Shown here one piece after another: positions 28,853-36,523 of a stretch of DNA of 64,000 nucleotides (positions are counted from its first letter, which is position 1; the number at the start of each line of letters is the position of its first letter). A program made the position numbers and the translations under genes. Under the pieces are notes generated by a model, which did not search any database, was not told where the DNA came from, and saw only the letters and a program-made list of their open reading frames with translations. The stretch spans positions 4,282,546 through 4,346,545 of the forward strand of contig NZ_CP032157.1 in NCBI RefSeq assembly GCF_003555545.1. The letters are read 5' to 3'. The DNA comes from Paraflavitalea soli. Its GTDB lineage: Bacteria > Bacteroidota > Bacteroidia > Chitinophagales > Chitinophagaceae.

Positions 28853-29122
28853 AAGGGTGGATCGCCCTTTTAGGGCGGCTCACCCTCCAAGAGCGGCTCA
28901 CCCTCCAAAGGCGGCTCACCCCGATCCAATTCATGTCACCTGAGAGAAAAACATGCCAGGGAGTCAATCAAAGGGTGGGTCACCCTCCAAGGGCGGCTCA
29001 CCCTCCAAAGGCGGCTCACCCCGATCCAATTCATGCCACCTGAGAGAAAAACATGCCAGGGAGTCAATCAAAGGGTGGGTCGCCCTCCAAGGGCGGCTCA
29101 CCCTGACCCAAATCATGTCACC
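28853..29122 (+). repeat. Hairpin repeat cluster with 100-bp tandem duplication
   Basis: One hairpin copy directly follows the SusD stop. Then come two tandem 100-bp units (28881-28980 and 28981-29080) and a partial third. Each unit carries GGGCGGCTCACCCTCCAA arms, CCGATCCAATTCATG and CACCTGAGAGAAAAACATGC. All hairpins are in sense orientation with the SusCD genes. Confidence 0.8.
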
Positions 29123-33282: not shown

Positions 33283-33597
33283 AAAAACAGTTTAAGATGA
33301 ATAATTATATAAGTACTCCTAAACCTAGAGGCACCCGCAACAGCCAGCCAAATTAGCCATTCGCCTGACCTGTTCGCCAGCCAATCGCTCAAAACCCTTG
33401 TTGCAGGAAATAAAGCCAATAACCAGGGCAAATGGTATTGGGTAACAAAACAATACTGTTTATCGAAAATTTGAGTCGTTAGTCTTTTTTGCAGCACCTA
33501 AAAGAATGATCCGTTAAAATCCATCAACCAATCTTACTGTCAATTAAATGTCTGCCTCAGGCTGAAGCATGCTGGGTGTAATGAGGAATGACTTAAA
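33283..33597. other. Gap before the tRNA/GIY-YIG array, nothing recognised
   Basis: About 315 bp with no open frame showing motifs and no RNA structure apart from the array terminator at its end. Confidence 0.5.
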
Positions 33598-33628
33598 ACA
33601 AAAAAGCCTCACATTACTGTGAGGCTTC
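33598..33628 (-). terminator. Terminator at the end of the tRNA/GIY-YIG array
   Basis: On the minus strand AAGCCTCACAGTAATGTGAG followed by GCTTTTTTG: a hairpin with a T-run. Unlike the internal hairpins of the array it has its own sequence, so it is the original end of the tRNA transcript or comes from flanking DNA. Confidence 0.75.
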
Positions 33629-33631
33629 TTG

Positions 33632-33713
33632 CGGACCGGACGGGACTCGAACCCGTCCCCACACTGCTGTGGGGATGACAGGGCGGCATGCTGACCAACT
33701 GATCTACCGATCA
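33632..33713 (-). pseudogene. tRNA-Asp-like pseudogene A with hairpin in place of the anticodon 3' arm
   Basis: 82 nt, 8 longer than the intact tRNA-Asp at 35206-35279. D-arm region, ATGCCGCCCTGTCA (5' anticodon stem and loop), T-arm GGGTTCGAGTCCC and 3' acceptor CCGGTCC are kept. The 12 nt after CTGTCA are replaced by a 20-nt palindrome (TCCCCACA, GCAG, TGTGGGGA). The first bases are TGATCGG, breaking the acceptor stem, and TGA is the stop of the nuclease gene 1. It cannot fold as a normal tRNA-Asp. Confidence 0.85.
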
Positions 33714-33989
33714 GTTTCCCCCGGTGAATTGAGCCACAATATTTTTGGAATGTGTAAGCAACGCATAAATCCTTTCCCTGGTCGCCTTCTTCAGATTTTT
33801 TTCCCGGATCAATGCCTCAGTTTTGGAGGCCATTTGTTCAACGTAAACCAGTTTCCAGGGAATCAAAAACCGTGTGCTTAAAGTTTCTCCGGCATTATGT
33901 TGTAAGAGGCGTTTAAACGGGTCTTCTGAAAAGCCTTTGTAGAAGCTTTCATCAACCGTACTTTGAATGATATAAACATAGAAGGACAT
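33711..33989 (-). CDS. GIY-YIG (URI-type) nuclease, array copy 1
   Basis: 92 aa, a single GIY-YIG domain: YVYIIQS for the GIY strand, FYKG for YIG, the catalytic Arg in KRLLQHN, and the catalytic Glu in SKTEALIREKNLKK. Members of this minimal URI-type group are putative endonucleases, many unassigned, some related to homing enzymes. The C-terminus (VAQFTGGN) and stop codon run into the tRNA-Asp-like copy A. It is nearly identical in DNA to copy 2 over most of its length, differing in the last ~30 bp, where it matches copy 4. Confidence 0.88.
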   Translation of the reverse strand: MSFYVYIIQSTVDESFYKGFSEDPFKRLLQHNAGETLSTRFLIPWKLVYVEQMASKTEALIREKNLKKATRERIYALLTHSKNIVAQFTGGN

Positions 33990-33993
33990 AAAT

Positions 33994-34026
33994 GCAAAAG
34001 GCTCCGAATTTCTTCAGAGCCTTTGC
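33994..34026 (-). terminator. Array terminator-like hairpin 1
   Basis: Minus strand: GCAAAGGCTCTGAAG then AATTCGGAGCCTTTTGC, a stem ending in Ts between tRNA-like copy B and the start of nuclease gene 1. Repeated in each unit. Confidence 0.7.
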
Positions 34027-34107
34027 GGACCGGACGGGACTCGAACCCGTCCCCACACTGCTGTGGGGATGACAGGGCGGCACAACAATCAACTGAACTA
34101 CAGATCC
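34026..34107 (-). pseudogene. tRNA-Asp-like pseudogene B with hairpin insert
   Basis: 82 nt. 5' end GGATCTGTAGTTCAGTTG (one change in the acceptor arm versus the intact gene), altered D-loop (ATTGTTGTG), same CCGCCCTGTCA, same 20-nt palindrome, intact T-arm and 3' acceptor strand. It overlaps the last 10 nt of nuclease gene 2. Confidence 0.85.
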
Positions 34108-34382
34108 CCTTCCCGGATAAATTGAATTACTATATTCTTGGAATGTGTAAGCAACGCATAAATCCTTTCCCTGGTCGCCTTCTTCAGATTTTTTTCCCGG
34201 ATCAATGCCTCAGTTTTGGAGGCCATTTGTTCAACGTAAACCAGTTTCCAGGGAATCAAAAACCGTGTGCTTAAAGTTTCTCCGGCATTATGTTGTAAGA
34301 GGCGTTTAAACGGGTCTTCTGAAAAGCCTTTGTAGAAGCTTTCATCAACCGTACTCTGAATGATATAAACGTAGAAGGCCAT
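34098..34382 (-). CDS. GIY-YIG (URI-type) nuclease, array copy 2
   Basis: 94 aa, same catalytic layout as copy 1 (YVYIIQS, FYKG, KRLLQHN, ALIREKNLKK). The C-terminus is VIQFIREGDL: Gly-Asp-Leu-stop is read from GGGATCTGTAG, the 5' end of tRNA-like copy B. It begins MAFYVY where copy 1 has MSFYVY. The start codon follows an array hairpin by a few bases, so there may be no promoter of its own. Confidence 0.88.
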   Translation of the reverse strand: MAFYVYIIQSTVDESFYKGFSEDPFKRLLQHNAGETLSTRFLIPWKLVYVEQMASKTEALIREKNLKKATRERIYALLTHSKNIVIQFIREGDL

Positions 34383-34386
34383 AAAT

Positions 34387-34419
34387 GCAAAAGGCTCCGA
34401 ATTTCTTCAGAGCCTTTGC
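34387..34419 (-). terminator. Array terminator-like hairpin 2
   Basis: Same AAAGGCTC / GAGCCTTTT stem as hairpin 1, between tRNA-like copy C and nuclease gene 2. Confidence 0.7.
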
Positions 34420-34500
34420 GGACCGGACGGGACTCGAACCCGTCCCCACACTGCTGTGGGGATGACAGGGCGGCACAACAATCAACTGAACTACAGATCC
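34419..34500 (-). pseudogene. tRNA-Asp-like pseudogene C with hairpin insert
   Basis: 82 nt, identical in design and apparently in sequence to copy B: GGATCTGTAG start, ATTGTTGTG D-loop, palindrome replacing the anticodon 3' arm. Overlaps the end of nuclease gene 3 by 10 nt. Confidence 0.85.
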
Positions 34501-34775
34501 CCTTCCCGGATAAATTGAATTACTATATTCTTGGGATGTGTAAGCAAGGCATGAATCCTTTCCCTGGTGGCTTTCTTGAGATTTTTTTCCCGGATCAATG
34601 CCTCAGTTTTGGAGGCCATTTGTTCAACGTAAACCAGTTTCCAGGGAATCAAAAACCGTGTGCTTAAAGTCTCTCCGGCATTGTGCTGTAACAGCCGTTT
34701 AAGAGGGTCTTCAGAAAACCCCTTGTAGAAGCTTTCATCAACCTTACTTTGAATGATATAAACATAGAAGGACAT
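34491..34775 (-). CDS. GIY-YIG (URI-type) nuclease, array copy 3
   Basis: 94 aa with intact GIY-YIG motifs. Mosaic: N-terminal half (QSKVDESF, PLKRLLQ) matches copy 4, C-terminal end (VIQFIREGDL) matches copy 2. Small private changes are ERIHALLTHPKN. Stop codon TAG again lies in the 5' end of the following tRNA-like sequence. Confidence 0.88.
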   Translation of the reverse strand: MSFYVYIIQSKVDESFYKGFSEDPLKRLLQHNAGETLSTRFLIPWKLVYVEQMASKTEALIREKNLKKATRERIHALLTHPKNIVIQFIREGDL

Positions 34776-34779
34776 AAAT

Positions 34780-34812
34780 GCAAAAGGCTCCGAATTTCTT
34801 CAGAGCCTTTGC
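34780..34812 (-). terminator. Array terminator-like hairpin 3
   Basis: Same AAAGGCTC / GAGCCTTTT stem, between tRNA-like copy D and nuclease gene 3. Confidence 0.7.
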
Positions 34813-34893
34813 GGACCGGACGGGACTCGAACCCGTCCCCACACTGCTGTGGGGATGACAGGGCGGCATGCTGACCAACTGATCTATCGATCA
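34812..34893 (-). pseudogene. tRNA-Asp-like pseudogene D with hairpin insert
   Basis: 82 nt, closest to copy A (TGATCGATAGATCAGTTGG start, CAGCATG D-loop), with the same palindrome. The first three bases are the TGA stop of nuclease gene 4. Confidence 0.85.
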
Positions 34894-35169
34894 GTTTCCC
34901 CCGGTGAATTGAGCCACAATATTTTTGGAATGTGTAAGCAACGCATAAATCCTTTCCCTGGTCGCCTTCTTCAGATTTTTTTCCCGGATCAATGCCTCAG
35001 TTTTGGAAGCCATTGCTTCAACATAAACCAATTTCCAGGGTGCTAAGTATCGTGTACTGGAAGTCTCTCCGGCATTGTGCTGTAACAGCCGTTTAAGAGG
35101 GTCTTCAGAAAACCCTTTGTAGAAGCTTTCGTCAACCTTACTTTGAATGATATAAACGTAGAAGGCCAT
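34891..35169 (-). CDS. GIY-YIG (URI-type) nuclease, array copy 4
   Basis: 92 aa, first nuclease gene after the intact tRNA-Asp and the most divergent copy (TSSTRYLAPWKLVYVEAMAS where the others have TLSTRFLIPWKLVYVEQMAS). Catalytic Arg and Glu regions are kept. C-terminus VAQFTGGN as in copy 1. All four frames are open, which argues that selection or recent copying keeps them intact. Confidence 0.88.
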   Translation of the reverse strand: MAFYVYIIQSKVDESFYKGFSEDPLKRLLQHNAGETSSTRYLAPWKLVYVEAMASKTEALIREKNLKKATRERIYALLTHSKNIVAQFTGGN

Positions 35170-35173
35170 AAAT

Positions 35174-35206
35174 GCAAAAAGCTCCGAATTTCTTCAGAGC
35201 CTTTGC
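35174..35206 (-). terminator. Array terminator-like hairpin 4, after intact tRNA-Asp
   Basis: AAAGGCTCTGAAG / CGGAGCTTTTTGC stem with T5, directly 3' of the intact tRNA-Asp. Probably the native tRNA terminator that was copied with each unit. Confidence 0.75.
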
Positions 35207-35279
35207 GGACCGGACGGGACTCGAACCCGCGACCTCCGCCGTGACAGGGCGGCATTCTAACCAACTGAACTACCGATCC
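35206..35279 (-). tRNA. tRNA-Asp (anticodon GTC)
   Basis: 74 nt. Acceptor GGATCGG / CCGGTCC (one G-U), D-arm TAGTTCAGTTGGTTAGAAT, anticodon arm CCGCC-CTGTCAC-GGCGG with anticodon GTC, T-arm CGGG-TTCGAGT-CCCG, discriminator G. CCA is not encoded. It is the only complete tRNA in this cluster. Confidence 0.95.
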
Positions 35280-35317
35280 AATATGTTGAGCGATCAATCG
35301 CTTAAGAACTTTGTTTG

Positions 35318-35398
35318 CGGACCGGCGAGACTTGAACCCGTCCCCACACTGCTGTGGGGATGACAGGGCGGCATTCTAACCAACTGAACTACCGATCC
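35318..35398 (-). pseudogene. tRNA-Asp-like pseudogene F with hairpin insert
   Basis: 81 nt, upstream of the intact gene. The 5' half is identical to intact tRNA-Asp (GGATCGGTAGTTCAGTTGG ... CCGCCCTGTCA), then the same 20-nt palindrome, then a T-arm with changes (GGGTTCAAGTCTCGCC). No nuclease gene lies between it and the intact tRNA. The flanks (AATATGTTGAGCGA, CGCTTAAGA) are shared with the region after it, so this is another duplication. Confidence 0.8.
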
Positions 35399-35437
35399 AA
35401 TATGTTGAGCGAATCATCGCTTAAGAGCTTCTCTTCT

Positions 35438-35516
35438 TACCGTATACGGGATTCGAACCCGTATCACCACTTTTAACCTCCAACCTCTTAATAACCAGTC
35501 CCTTCTACCGACCGTT
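35438..35516 (-). pseudogene. tRNA remnant: T-arm and 3' acceptor strand only
   Basis: Minus strand ATACGGGTTCGAATCCCGTATACGGT gives a good T-arm and a 3' acceptor strand in tRNA spacing. The 5' part (GAACGGTCGGTAGAAGGG, GGTTATTAAGAGGTTGGAGG) does not pair with it and has no anticodon arm I can fold. Another decayed tRNA gene at the front of the cluster. Confidence 0.4.
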
Positions 35517-35534
35517 CTATCGTTTTTGGGATGG

Positions 35535-35564
35535 CAAAGATAGCAGTTTTTTAATTTCAACCAA
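35535..35564 (-). promoter_or_regulatory. Promoter of the tRNA/GIY-YIG array
   Basis: Minus strand -7 element TATCTTTG (35535-35542), a full TAnnTTTG match, with TTG (35562-35564) 19 bp upstream as the -33 element. Transcription would start near 35528 and enter the first tRNA remnant. Confidence 0.7.
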
Positions 35565-35647
35565 CAAAAAAACCAGATTTCCTGAACTTTATTTTCTTTT
35601 TTTCTCACGACGACCGGAAAGCCGATTTCCCTCCCCTTCCCCACGCA

Positions 35648-36523
35648 CTAAAACAACGACAATTGCTGGTCATTAGGCCGCCGCTTGGGCTTCGAAAGAA
35701 CGAATGCCGGTGCTACCGGCTCTACAGGTCTTTTTATCTCCCCCAGCATTTCCCCCGAAGATTGAATATGATAGACCGCCGTTTCCTCAAACCGCGAGGC
35801 TACCACAATAGATGTATTGCTCGTATGCTGGTCAAACAGGTCCTTCACCAGCTGCGGGTTATTATTATCCTTCGACAAGTGCGCCAGCAACAGGTGACTC
35901 ATAAAGGAAGGCCGGTACAGCTTAAACAATTCCAGCGCCTGCGCATTCGACAAATGCCCATGCCCGCCCTTGATCCGGTTTTTCAAAGATGCCGGATACC
36001 GGCCATTCATCAGCATCTCCTCATCATAATTCGTTTCCAGGAAAGCCGCATGACAATGCTGAAAATGATTGATCACATGCGCACATGCCTTACCTATATC
36101 AGTAAATACCCCCACCCGCACCGTAGACGATGCTACAATGAAGCTATGAGGATCAGAAGCATCATGAAACTTGGGAAAAGCCGTTACAGATATACCGCCG
36201 ATGCGCACCGCTTCATAAGCGGCAAAAGGAATGACCAGCTCCCGCGCCAGGTCCATCCGGCCATGCCGTAGCGTTCCTTCCGTAATATAAACCGGCAACC
36301 GGTACTTTTTGGCCAGCACAGGAATACCTGATATATGGTCCGAATGCTCGTGCGATACGAAGATCGCCTTTACCTTGTCCATCGACAATCCCAGCCGTTT
36401 CATCCGCTTTTCCGTCTCCCGGCACGAGATCCCCGCATCCACAAAGATCCCCTCCTCATCGTTACCGATGTAGTAGCAATTCCCATTGCTCCCCGAATTC
36501 AATGAGGTAATGTATAATGACAT
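35648..36523 (-). CDS. MBL-fold metallo-hydrolase (YycJ/VicX-like)
   Basis: 291 aa from the Met of MSLYITSLNSGSNGNCYYIG, the normal start of this family; the longer frame upstream is encoded by a GTTGCC repeat tract. Metallo-beta-lactamase motifs are FVDAGISCRE (first Asp), VSHEHSDHISG (HxHxDH), a His in FPKFHDASDPHSF, GVFTDIGKA (metal-bridging Asp) and SHLLLAHLSKDNNNP near the end. YycJ-type proteins are cytosolic two-metal hydrolases, some with DNA exonuclease activity. Stands alone, downstream of the M1 peptidase promoter region and convergent with none. Confidence 0.88.
   Translation of the reverse strand: MSLYITSLNSGSNGNCYYIGNDEEGIFVDAGISCRETEKRMKRLGLSMDKVKAIFVSHEHSDHISGIPVLAKKYRLPVYITEGTLRHGRMDLARELVIPFAAYEAVRIGGISVTAFPKFHDASDPHSFIVASSTVRVGVFTDIGKACAHVINHFQHCHAAFLETNYDEEMLMNGRYPASLKNRIKGGHGHLSNAQALELFKLYRPSFMSHLLLAHLSKDNNNPQLVKDLFDQHTSNTSIVVASRFEETAVYHIQSSGEMLGEIKRPVEPVAPAFVLSKPKRRPNDQQLSLF

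Follow-up and report, generated by a model that had tools for sequence, protein, structure and literature searches.

Organization of the tRNA-Asp/nuclease array

The DNA analyzed here, a stretch of 64,000 nucleotides from the Paraflavitalea soli genome (the window), contains an array in which small GIY-YIG nuclease genes alternate with altered copies of a tRNA-Asp gene (Table 1). All parts of the array are on the minus strand. In the 5' to 3' direction of that strand they are a promoter-like box, a tRNA-Asp copy partly substituted by a hairpin, an intact tRNA-Asp, four units, and a distinct terminator-like hairpin; each unit is composed of a terminator-like hairpin, a GIY-YIG gene, and a hairpin-substituted tRNA-Asp copy. 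The program Tandem Repeats Finder (TRF) located a tandem repeat at 33629-35229 with a period of 393 and 4.1 copies, and the spacing from one unit start to the next is 393, 393, and 394 bp. A preliminary description of this DNA had reported four open GIY-YIG genes of 92-94 codons in units of about 393 bp; these were confirmed by TRF, by the open reading frames (ORFs), and by Pfam, and the different terminator reported at the tail was likewise found. The box at the head reads CAAAGATA on the plus strand and is similar to TAnnTTTG, which we take to be the Bacteroidota -7 consensus; it is a candidate read directly from the sequence.

Table 1. Coordinates of the array features in the window
Feature	Position	Strand	Evidence or remark
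Candidate Bacteroidota -7 promoter box (TATCTTTG)	35535..35542	-	array head; sequence read directly
Upstream hairpin-substituted tRNA-Asp copy, 5' complete	35318..35398	-	hairpin 35341-35360; Rfam tRNA 29.2 bits
Intact tRNA-Asp (GTC)	35205..35279	-	ARAGORN, Rfam, genome search; sole intact one found in genome
Element-type terminator-like hairpin 3' of intact tRNA	35175..35202	-	unlike sequence behind tRNA-Asp of congeners
GIY-YIG nuclease gene 4 (92 aa)	34891..35169	-	ORF, Pfam match, structure model
Hairpin-substituted tRNA-Asp remnant	34812..34890	-	hairpin 34836-34855
GIY-YIG nuclease gene 3 (94 aa)	34491..34775	-	ORF, Pfam match
Hairpin-substituted tRNA-Asp remnant	34419..34499	-	hairpin 34443-34462
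GIY-YIG nuclease gene 2 (94 aa)	34098..34382	-	ORF, Pfam match
Hairpin-substituted tRNA-Asp remnant	34026..34106	-	hairpin 34050-34069
GIY-YIG nuclease gene 1 (92 aa)	33711..33989	-	ORF, Pfam match
Last hairpin-substituted tRNA-Asp remnant	33633..33712	-	hairpin 33656-33675
Tail terminator-like hairpin	33602..33630	-	differs from internal ones

ARAGORN called a single tRNA in the window, the intact tRNA-Asp. When the genome (8.44 Mb, single contig) was searched with a defective copy as query, five defective copies (the query included) and the intact tRNA-Asp were recovered, with nothing further better than E 0.33; the earlier claim of a single intact tRNA-Asp is borne out by both analyses. The five other copies had been described as defective in the same way. 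This is correct for the 20-nt hairpin TCCCCACAGCAGTGTGGGGA, which can be written T-CCCCACAGCAGTGTGGGG-A and replaces the 3' anticodon strand and the variable loop in all five, but not for the 5' ends of the copies behind nuclease genes, which have drifted into two types. Among the three internal units, 0 of 91 nt differ over the stretch that runs from the hairpin site up to the start codon of the next gene; this stretch comprises the hairpin, the 3' half of the tRNA, and the terminator. Single-strand folding gave z-scores of -2.76 for each of two hairpin copies tested and -0.96 for the intact tRNA.

The nuclease proteins

The four ORFs are all open and match Pfam PF01541 at 50.2-56.6 bits (cut-off 22.6). 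Residues Y6, Y17, G19, R27, H31, E63, and K67 are invariant across 26 aligned proteins, a set that we take to include the GIY-YIG catalytic residues. An AlphaFold2 model of the window nuclease (predicted local distance difference test score 93.3) was matched by Foldseek to UPF0213 and SLX1, and by sequence as well as fold the nearest solved relatives are 1zg2 and 1ywl, both UPF0213, followed by SLX1. Given this kinship, the modeled protein could realistically be a structure-specific enzyme that acts on extruded tRNA arms or hairpins. Most of the nearest named relatives belong to genera that we take to be Chitinophagaceae. Close phage relatives were not found: the 17 phage records are all below 60% identity, and the GIY-YIG proteins among the ten best matches in a predicted-virus library are at 17-30% identity.

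The preliminary description had called the four genes almost identical. The proteins are indeed close, but of about 55 synonymous sites 5 to 21.5 differ between the gene copies, and genes 2, 3, and 4, which stand beside identical 91-nt modules, differ pairwise at 15-21.5 of them. Over the six pairs of gene copies, synonymous divergence (dS) is 0.10-0.55 and nonsynonymous divergence (dN) is 0.015-0.059; the low dN relative to dS points to purifying selection on the proteins. Since the units have diverged at synonymous sites, the duplication is neither fresh nor made by assembly. An assembly artefact was rejected on this ground, and also because the genome is a single contig and similar arrays are present in many other genomes.

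Association of the nuclease family with tRNA genes

The family was searched with a profile, A1, built from ten nucleases, nine of them linked to a tRNA or hairpin-tRNA and one (locus L079) beside a hairpin with no called tRNA; the census therefore covers the A1 subfamily and not all GIY-YIG genes. Of 117 genomes in the window's family, 82 gave matches, many of them in tandem arrays with a spacing of about 300-380 bp, and tandem nuclease/tRNA units recur in other genera. The census was taken over 125 loci among the matches listed, with the window array and the tRNA-Ser(GGA) locus of the same genome (see below) left out, and the controls were 13 loci holding other GIY-YIG matches from the genus. 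An intact same-strand tRNA is located within 300 bp at 104 of the 125 family loci and at none of the 13 controls. Specifically, the intact tRNA is 5' to the gene at 87 loci and on the 3' side at 17, a T-arm motif alone is present at 8, and 13 have neither; the 8 were not counted because the motif is also found near 3 of the 13 controls. No opposite-strand tRNA was found at any of the 125. A lack of association between homologs and tRNA genes had been named in advance as evidence against a tRNA-targeting element, and the association was observed.

The 18 proteins closest to the window nuclease divide as follows: an intact tRNA-Asp lies within 1 kb of 9, 6 are by a tRNA-Asp remnant recognized by eye (one of these, L216, may be an intact tRNA cut by a contig end), 2 are by another tRNA (Ser, His), and 1 is an unscored fragment. 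A sequence pattern, a hairpin followed by a T loop, gave matches in 62 of 395 Bacteroidota genomes, as against 1 match for the backward pattern; some of the matches are not tRNAs (no tRNA was called in L075, L077, L084, L085, L087, L090, or L091). A small GIY-YIG gene lies within about 1.5 kb at 12 of the 29 scored loci of this search.

At L177, L197, L198, and L199, nuclease copies are cut to 40-48 codons or split in two, and in L197 a 43-codon copy stands beside one of 90 codons, which suggests turnover of units; L222 and L198 may be one record. ARAGORN called the hairpin-substituted copies in L107 and L125 tRNA-Stop or tRNA-Pro, so that automatic annotation can count false tRNA genes there.

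One intact and one disrupted tRNA copy

In the layout that recurs across these loci, the nuclease gene is placed between two copies of one tRNA, one intact and the other with an arm or part of an arm replaced by a hairpin. The nuclease is at least 70 aa long in 122 of 128 loci (L097-L224). An intact tRNA lies within 450 bp 5' to the gene in 88 of these 122, at a median distance of 38 bp and within 60 bp in 72 of the 88. Two of the 88 loci end at a contig edge and 61 have a downstream 3' tRNA remnant, in which a hairpin was scored in 55 of 61 cases; this score includes detector errors (in L147 the hairpin is the second tRNA's own arm, and in L142 and L172 the wrong stem was picked), and the six remnants scored as hairpin-free (L115, L125, L176, L183, L194, L201) have longer or imperfect stems by eye. 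In the mirror form, with the intact tRNA 3' to the gene, a hairpin-bearing tRNA copy or its 5' part is found upstream in 10 of 13 loci examined (L126, L153, L157, L166, L178, L181, L185, L195, L196, and L205, the last with an imperfect hairpin); L148 has a partial hairpin copy upstream of the gene, and L175 and L186 have none. Thus, the usual state is one intact and one disrupted tRNA copy.

At many loci the replaced stretch is exactly one cloverleaf arm. The 17-nt anticodon arm is replaced at Ala, Arg, Lys, Val, and Met loci, the D arm at Pro and Phe loci, and the T-arm region elsewhere; at Asp and initiator-Met loci the hairpin takes the place of the 3' anticodon strand together with the variable loop. 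The stems across loci include TCCCGA, TCCGCC, TCCCCACAG, GCCCCGCC, CCTGCC, and GCTGACC, and with several distinct types occurring, the idea that the hairpins form one sequence family was rejected.

Nuclease clade, tRNA identity, and replaced arm

A tree was made of the 102 nucleases that have a tRNA nearby (L198 is not in it); it is a quick tree resting on few alignment columns. The anticodon label changes 38 times on it, as compared with a mean of 77.4 and a minimum of 71 in 200 shuffles, and the amino-acid label 28 times (shuffled mean 73.4, minimum 68). The class of replaced arm changes 12 times against a shuffled mean of 22.4 and minimum of 18 (500 shuffles, n=58), a count that retains five rows that look misassigned (L101, L142, L176, L182, L201).

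One clade of six loci (SH-aLRT, the Shimodaira-Hasegawa-like approximate likelihood ratio test, 98) includes tRNA-Leu (two anticodons), tRNA-Asp, tRNA-Val, tRNA-Lys, and tRNA-His. All have a common double hairpin at the same T-arm site, joined to each locus's own tRNA 3' end, and their proteins are 45-72% identical; BLAST between the flanks of these loci gave no match. From these sequences we infer that nuclease and hairpin move as a pair from one tRNA gene to another, the tRNA part being local. That the T-arm clade spans isotypes, the T arm being near-universal, while the Asp, Ala, and initiator-Met groups each keep to one isotype with few exceptions, is as would be expected if the replaced arm were the target. 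These analyses extend the preliminary description, in which the array stood alone, to a general family over many tRNA isotypes, in which the hairpin often takes the place of a whole arm and the arm tends to mark the nuclease clade.

Bare sites in congeners and other loci in the same genome

A single intact tRNA-Asp, identical at 99-100%, is present in each of the four congeners (G001 to G004); its 5' leader is similar, and the sequence that follows is the congener's own. No hairpin copy or nuclease was found beside the tRNA-Asp in any of the four. G002 and G004 share with the window the neighboring gene behind which this tRNA lies; in G001 and G003 the distance from the tRNA to that gene is about 16 kb or more. 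The intact tRNA-Asp of the window is 100% identical to that of G001, a congener with no small GIY-YIG match (its two matches are in open frames of 463 and 610 codons), so that a resistant recoding of the intact tRNA is not seen. The presumed site is replaced in one tRNA copy and unchanged in the intact one.

The genome that contains the window has ten GIY-YIG matches, of which four are the window genes and three are in frames of 224, 507, and 646 codons. The remaining three are small open frames just 3' to tRNA-Met, tRNA-Ser(TGA), and tRNA-Ser(GGA). The tRNA-Met and tRNA-Ser(GGA) loci have tRNA copies in which a TCCCGA..TCGGGA hairpin replaces the anticodon region, five of them in tandem at tRNA-Ser(GGA). 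At the tRNA-Ser(TGA) locus (L005) the small GIY-YIG gene is about 142 bp behind the tRNA and no hairpin copy is visible by eye; a transposase-like ORF, also recognized by eye, ends about 0.8 kb upstream of this tRNA. Dispersed TCCCGATAGCTATCGGGA palindromes were noted in L024, L027, L028, and L041 of the same genome, within similar intergenic sequence where no tRNA is called.

A candidate homing unit in tRNA genes and its alternatives

The unit common to these loci is a GIY-YIG gene of about 80-100 codons, a hairpin, and part of a tRNA, in a host that keeps one intact tRNA. By analogy with the phage enzyme SegB (see below), we think it somewhat likelier than otherwise that this is a minimal mobile element resident in tRNA genes, which acts as free-standing homing endonucleases do, with the hairpin marking the targeted arm. 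The nuclease would recognize the tRNA gene and cut it in the arm whose place the hairpin takes; repair of the break from a unit-bearing tRNA would then insert the unit by recombination through tRNA homology. The hairpin would remove the target from the nuclease-linked copy and hinder clean recombination between the two tRNA copies. Selection on an essential tRNA would let only lineages with one intact copy survive, unequal exchange could amplify units in tandem, and the nuclease gene would probably be read by leakage through the tRNA terminator and so be kept low. In support, the nuclease adjoins its presumed target at the 104 census loci, and the tRNA-Asp alleles of all four congeners are without it. 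Also in favor are the match of nuclease clade with tRNA identity and with replaced arm, the T-arm clade that spans five isotypes, the mirror forms, and the selection on the window proteins. The tRNA-targeting proposal of the preliminary description is partly supported, through the association, the tandem units, and the bare congeners; the unchanged intact tRNA speaks against its simple version.

If homing is correct, it would account for the many small GIY-YIG genes of Bacteroidota seen here and add a chromosomal counterpart to SegB. It would also mean that mobile units as small as one gene of about 90 codons and a hairpin use essential genes as landing sites that are kept alive. The link between clade and replaced arm makes target specificity testable clade by clade. 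The units also interfere with annotation through false tRNA calls.

Several observations weigh against homing. The intact tRNA beside the nuclease is unchanged and therefore should still be a target, and this self-targeting of the intact copy is the weak point of the proposal; in the account of SegB drawn on here, cutting of the donor allele by free-standing GIY-YIG enzymes is typically inefficient (PMC13096335). The nearest solved structures are UPF0213 and SLX1, not I-TevI, and no separate DNA-binding domain is apparent in a nuclease of 92 aa. The relation between clade and arm has exceptions: a 15-row group, mostly with anticodon-arm hairpins, mixes Val, Met, and Arg; T-loop hairpins occur at single Lys, Ser, Pro, and Glu loci; and L169 (Phe) falls within the initiator-Met clade, its D arm bearing the hairpin of Met type. 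Two Met loci of that clade, L149 and L173, have a common downstream flank, and some of the descent is therefore vertical. Another array, L131, is without a synonymous excess (1-4 of 57 synonymous and 2-6 of 207 nonsynonymous sites). Hairpin copies of tRNA-Thr (L030) and tRNA-Pro (L039) in the window's own genome, and of tRNA-Thr (L046) in G001, have no adjacent nuclease; one of the three has a decayed stem. They are possibly leftovers of lost units, or the product of a nuclease-independent process. Finally, the identical 91-nt module of the window points to a function of the hairpin beyond that of a dead scar, unless local gene conversion has kept it uniform.

This module leads to the main rival, a serious one that we nevertheless regard as unlikely: an RNA toxin-antitoxin or defense module, in which the nuclease attacks, or is held by, tRNA and a co-transcribed arm-swapped tRNA-like RNA with an uncleavable hairpin is the inhibitor, comparable to the RNA repeats in type III systems. 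Besides the unchanged module, with the same proviso about gene conversion, it is favored by the pairing of the stems, which is kept as the letters change (pair 6 is AT, CG, or GC and pair 7 TA, CG, or AT in 16 distinct hairpins, that of L176 being misassigned), and by the same-strand placement of nuclease and tRNA at the 104 loci with a tRNA near. In L093, tandem hairpin-tRNA repeats are followed by a terminator-like hairpin and then the nuclease, and L008 has five repeats, an intact tRNA, and the nuclease, with the intact tRNA thus separating repeats and nuclease. In addition, the fusion of a tRNA methyltransferase with a GIY-YIG domain of the prokaryotic Slx1-like kind has led to the suggestion of a role in RNA metabolism (PMC1564403). 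However, many remnants are without most of the tRNA 5' half and so cannot yield a complete tRNA mimic; G001 has hairpin copies but no small GIY-YIG match; and in the PADLOC defense-family search the window protein went unmatched, while 2 of 3 relatives matched weakly and in part. Moreover, to our knowledge no GIY-YIG ribonuclease is known. More broadly, and with similarly low probability, the arm-swapped tRNA may be a working nucleic-acid partner of the nuclease and no scar, either an RNA antitoxin or an RNA or DNA recognition element that directs the enzyme to one arm of a single tRNA or tRNA gene; if so, it would be part of a tRNA-derived, structure-addressed nuclease system found across a bacterial phylum.

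Two further explanations appear quite improbable to us. The hairpin might do no more than insulate the nuclease mRNA: RNase P and RNase Z would excise a complete tRNA at its 3' end, and disruption of that copy would be selected because it stabilizes the message. Homing by the nuclease would be compatible with this. Where the remnant is of the 3' type, the disrupted copy does form the 3' end of the nuclease gene, and at several loci the stop codon is in or just before the hairpin, but in L195, L196, and L126 a complete tRNA overlaps the nuclease stop codon and the disrupted copy is upstream, and under insulation a link between replaced arm and nuclease clade would not be expected. Alternatively, with about as slight a chance, the loci are a by-product of tRNA genes acting as recombination hot spots, in which palindromes invade duplicated tRNAs and GIY-YIG genes are passengers. 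The presence of TCCCGA hairpins away from tRNAs and of hairpin copies without a nuclease is consistent with this. It is already disfavored by the arm-exact replacement at many loci, the dependence on clade, the same-strand placement, the low dN relative to dS in the window copies, and the finding of one and the same hairpin with related nucleases at tRNA genes that are unrelated.

Comparison with known systems

Among the papers listed in the literature searches, none describes the nuclease/hairpin-tRNA unit, as judged by title. The closest parallel is SegB of T-even phages, a GIY-YIG enzyme that, in the part of the account used here, cuts within tRNA genes at the motif RAWTSGAAC, makes tandem tRNA/segB repeats, and has microhomology between the 3' end of its gene and the tRNA 5' end (PMC13096335). 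By our reading, this motif would fit the complement of the tRNA T loop. The likeness thus lies in a GIY-YIG enzyme beside tRNA genes and in the tandem repeats of the two, and is one of arrangement. SegB differs in residing in phage genomes, and that part of the account describes no hairpin-substituted tRNA copies; the units found here are chromosomal, encode proteins of about 80-100 aa, and tend to one isotype per clade.

The UPF0213 and SLX1-like proteins are closest to the window nuclease in solved sequence and fold. We know of no function for UPF0213 proteins. SLX1 is reportedly inactive without SLX4, and no link of these proteins to tRNA genes is described in the cited part of PMC1564403.

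Mobile DNA that enters tRNA genes without killing them is exemplified by group I introns with homing endonucleases. Unlike these, the window tRNA is uninterrupted, the nuclease is outside the intact tRNA, and there is nothing to splice. In an Rfam search of 33300-36000 only tRNA reached the gathering score and no group I intron matched at E<=1; a group I intron in the tRNA gene, or a different known RNA family, was rejected accordingly. Type III toxin-antitoxin systems (ToxIN) have the order structured RNA repeats, terminator, nuclease, which L093 resembles; here the fold is GIY-YIG instead of ToxN-type, the repeats are tRNA-derived, and most scored loci have a single remnant and no repeat array. 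REP palindromes, which go with RAYT (Y1) transposases, are short hairpins dispersed in bacterial genomes. In contrast to REP/RAYT systems, the hairpin described here takes the place of tRNA arms, and the nuclease to which it is linked is of the GIY-YIG type.

Other features of the window

Just 5' to the array, at 35441-35524 on the minus strand, is a tRNA-like stretch of about 84 nt that bears a T arm and for which ARAGORN makes no call; a similar stretch is at the same place in G001 (L230), and it may be a decayed or unusual tRNA. The stretch 28872-29104 holds 2.3 copies of a 100-bp tandem repeat (96% match), made up of 18-bp words similar to GGGCGGCTCACCCTCCA.

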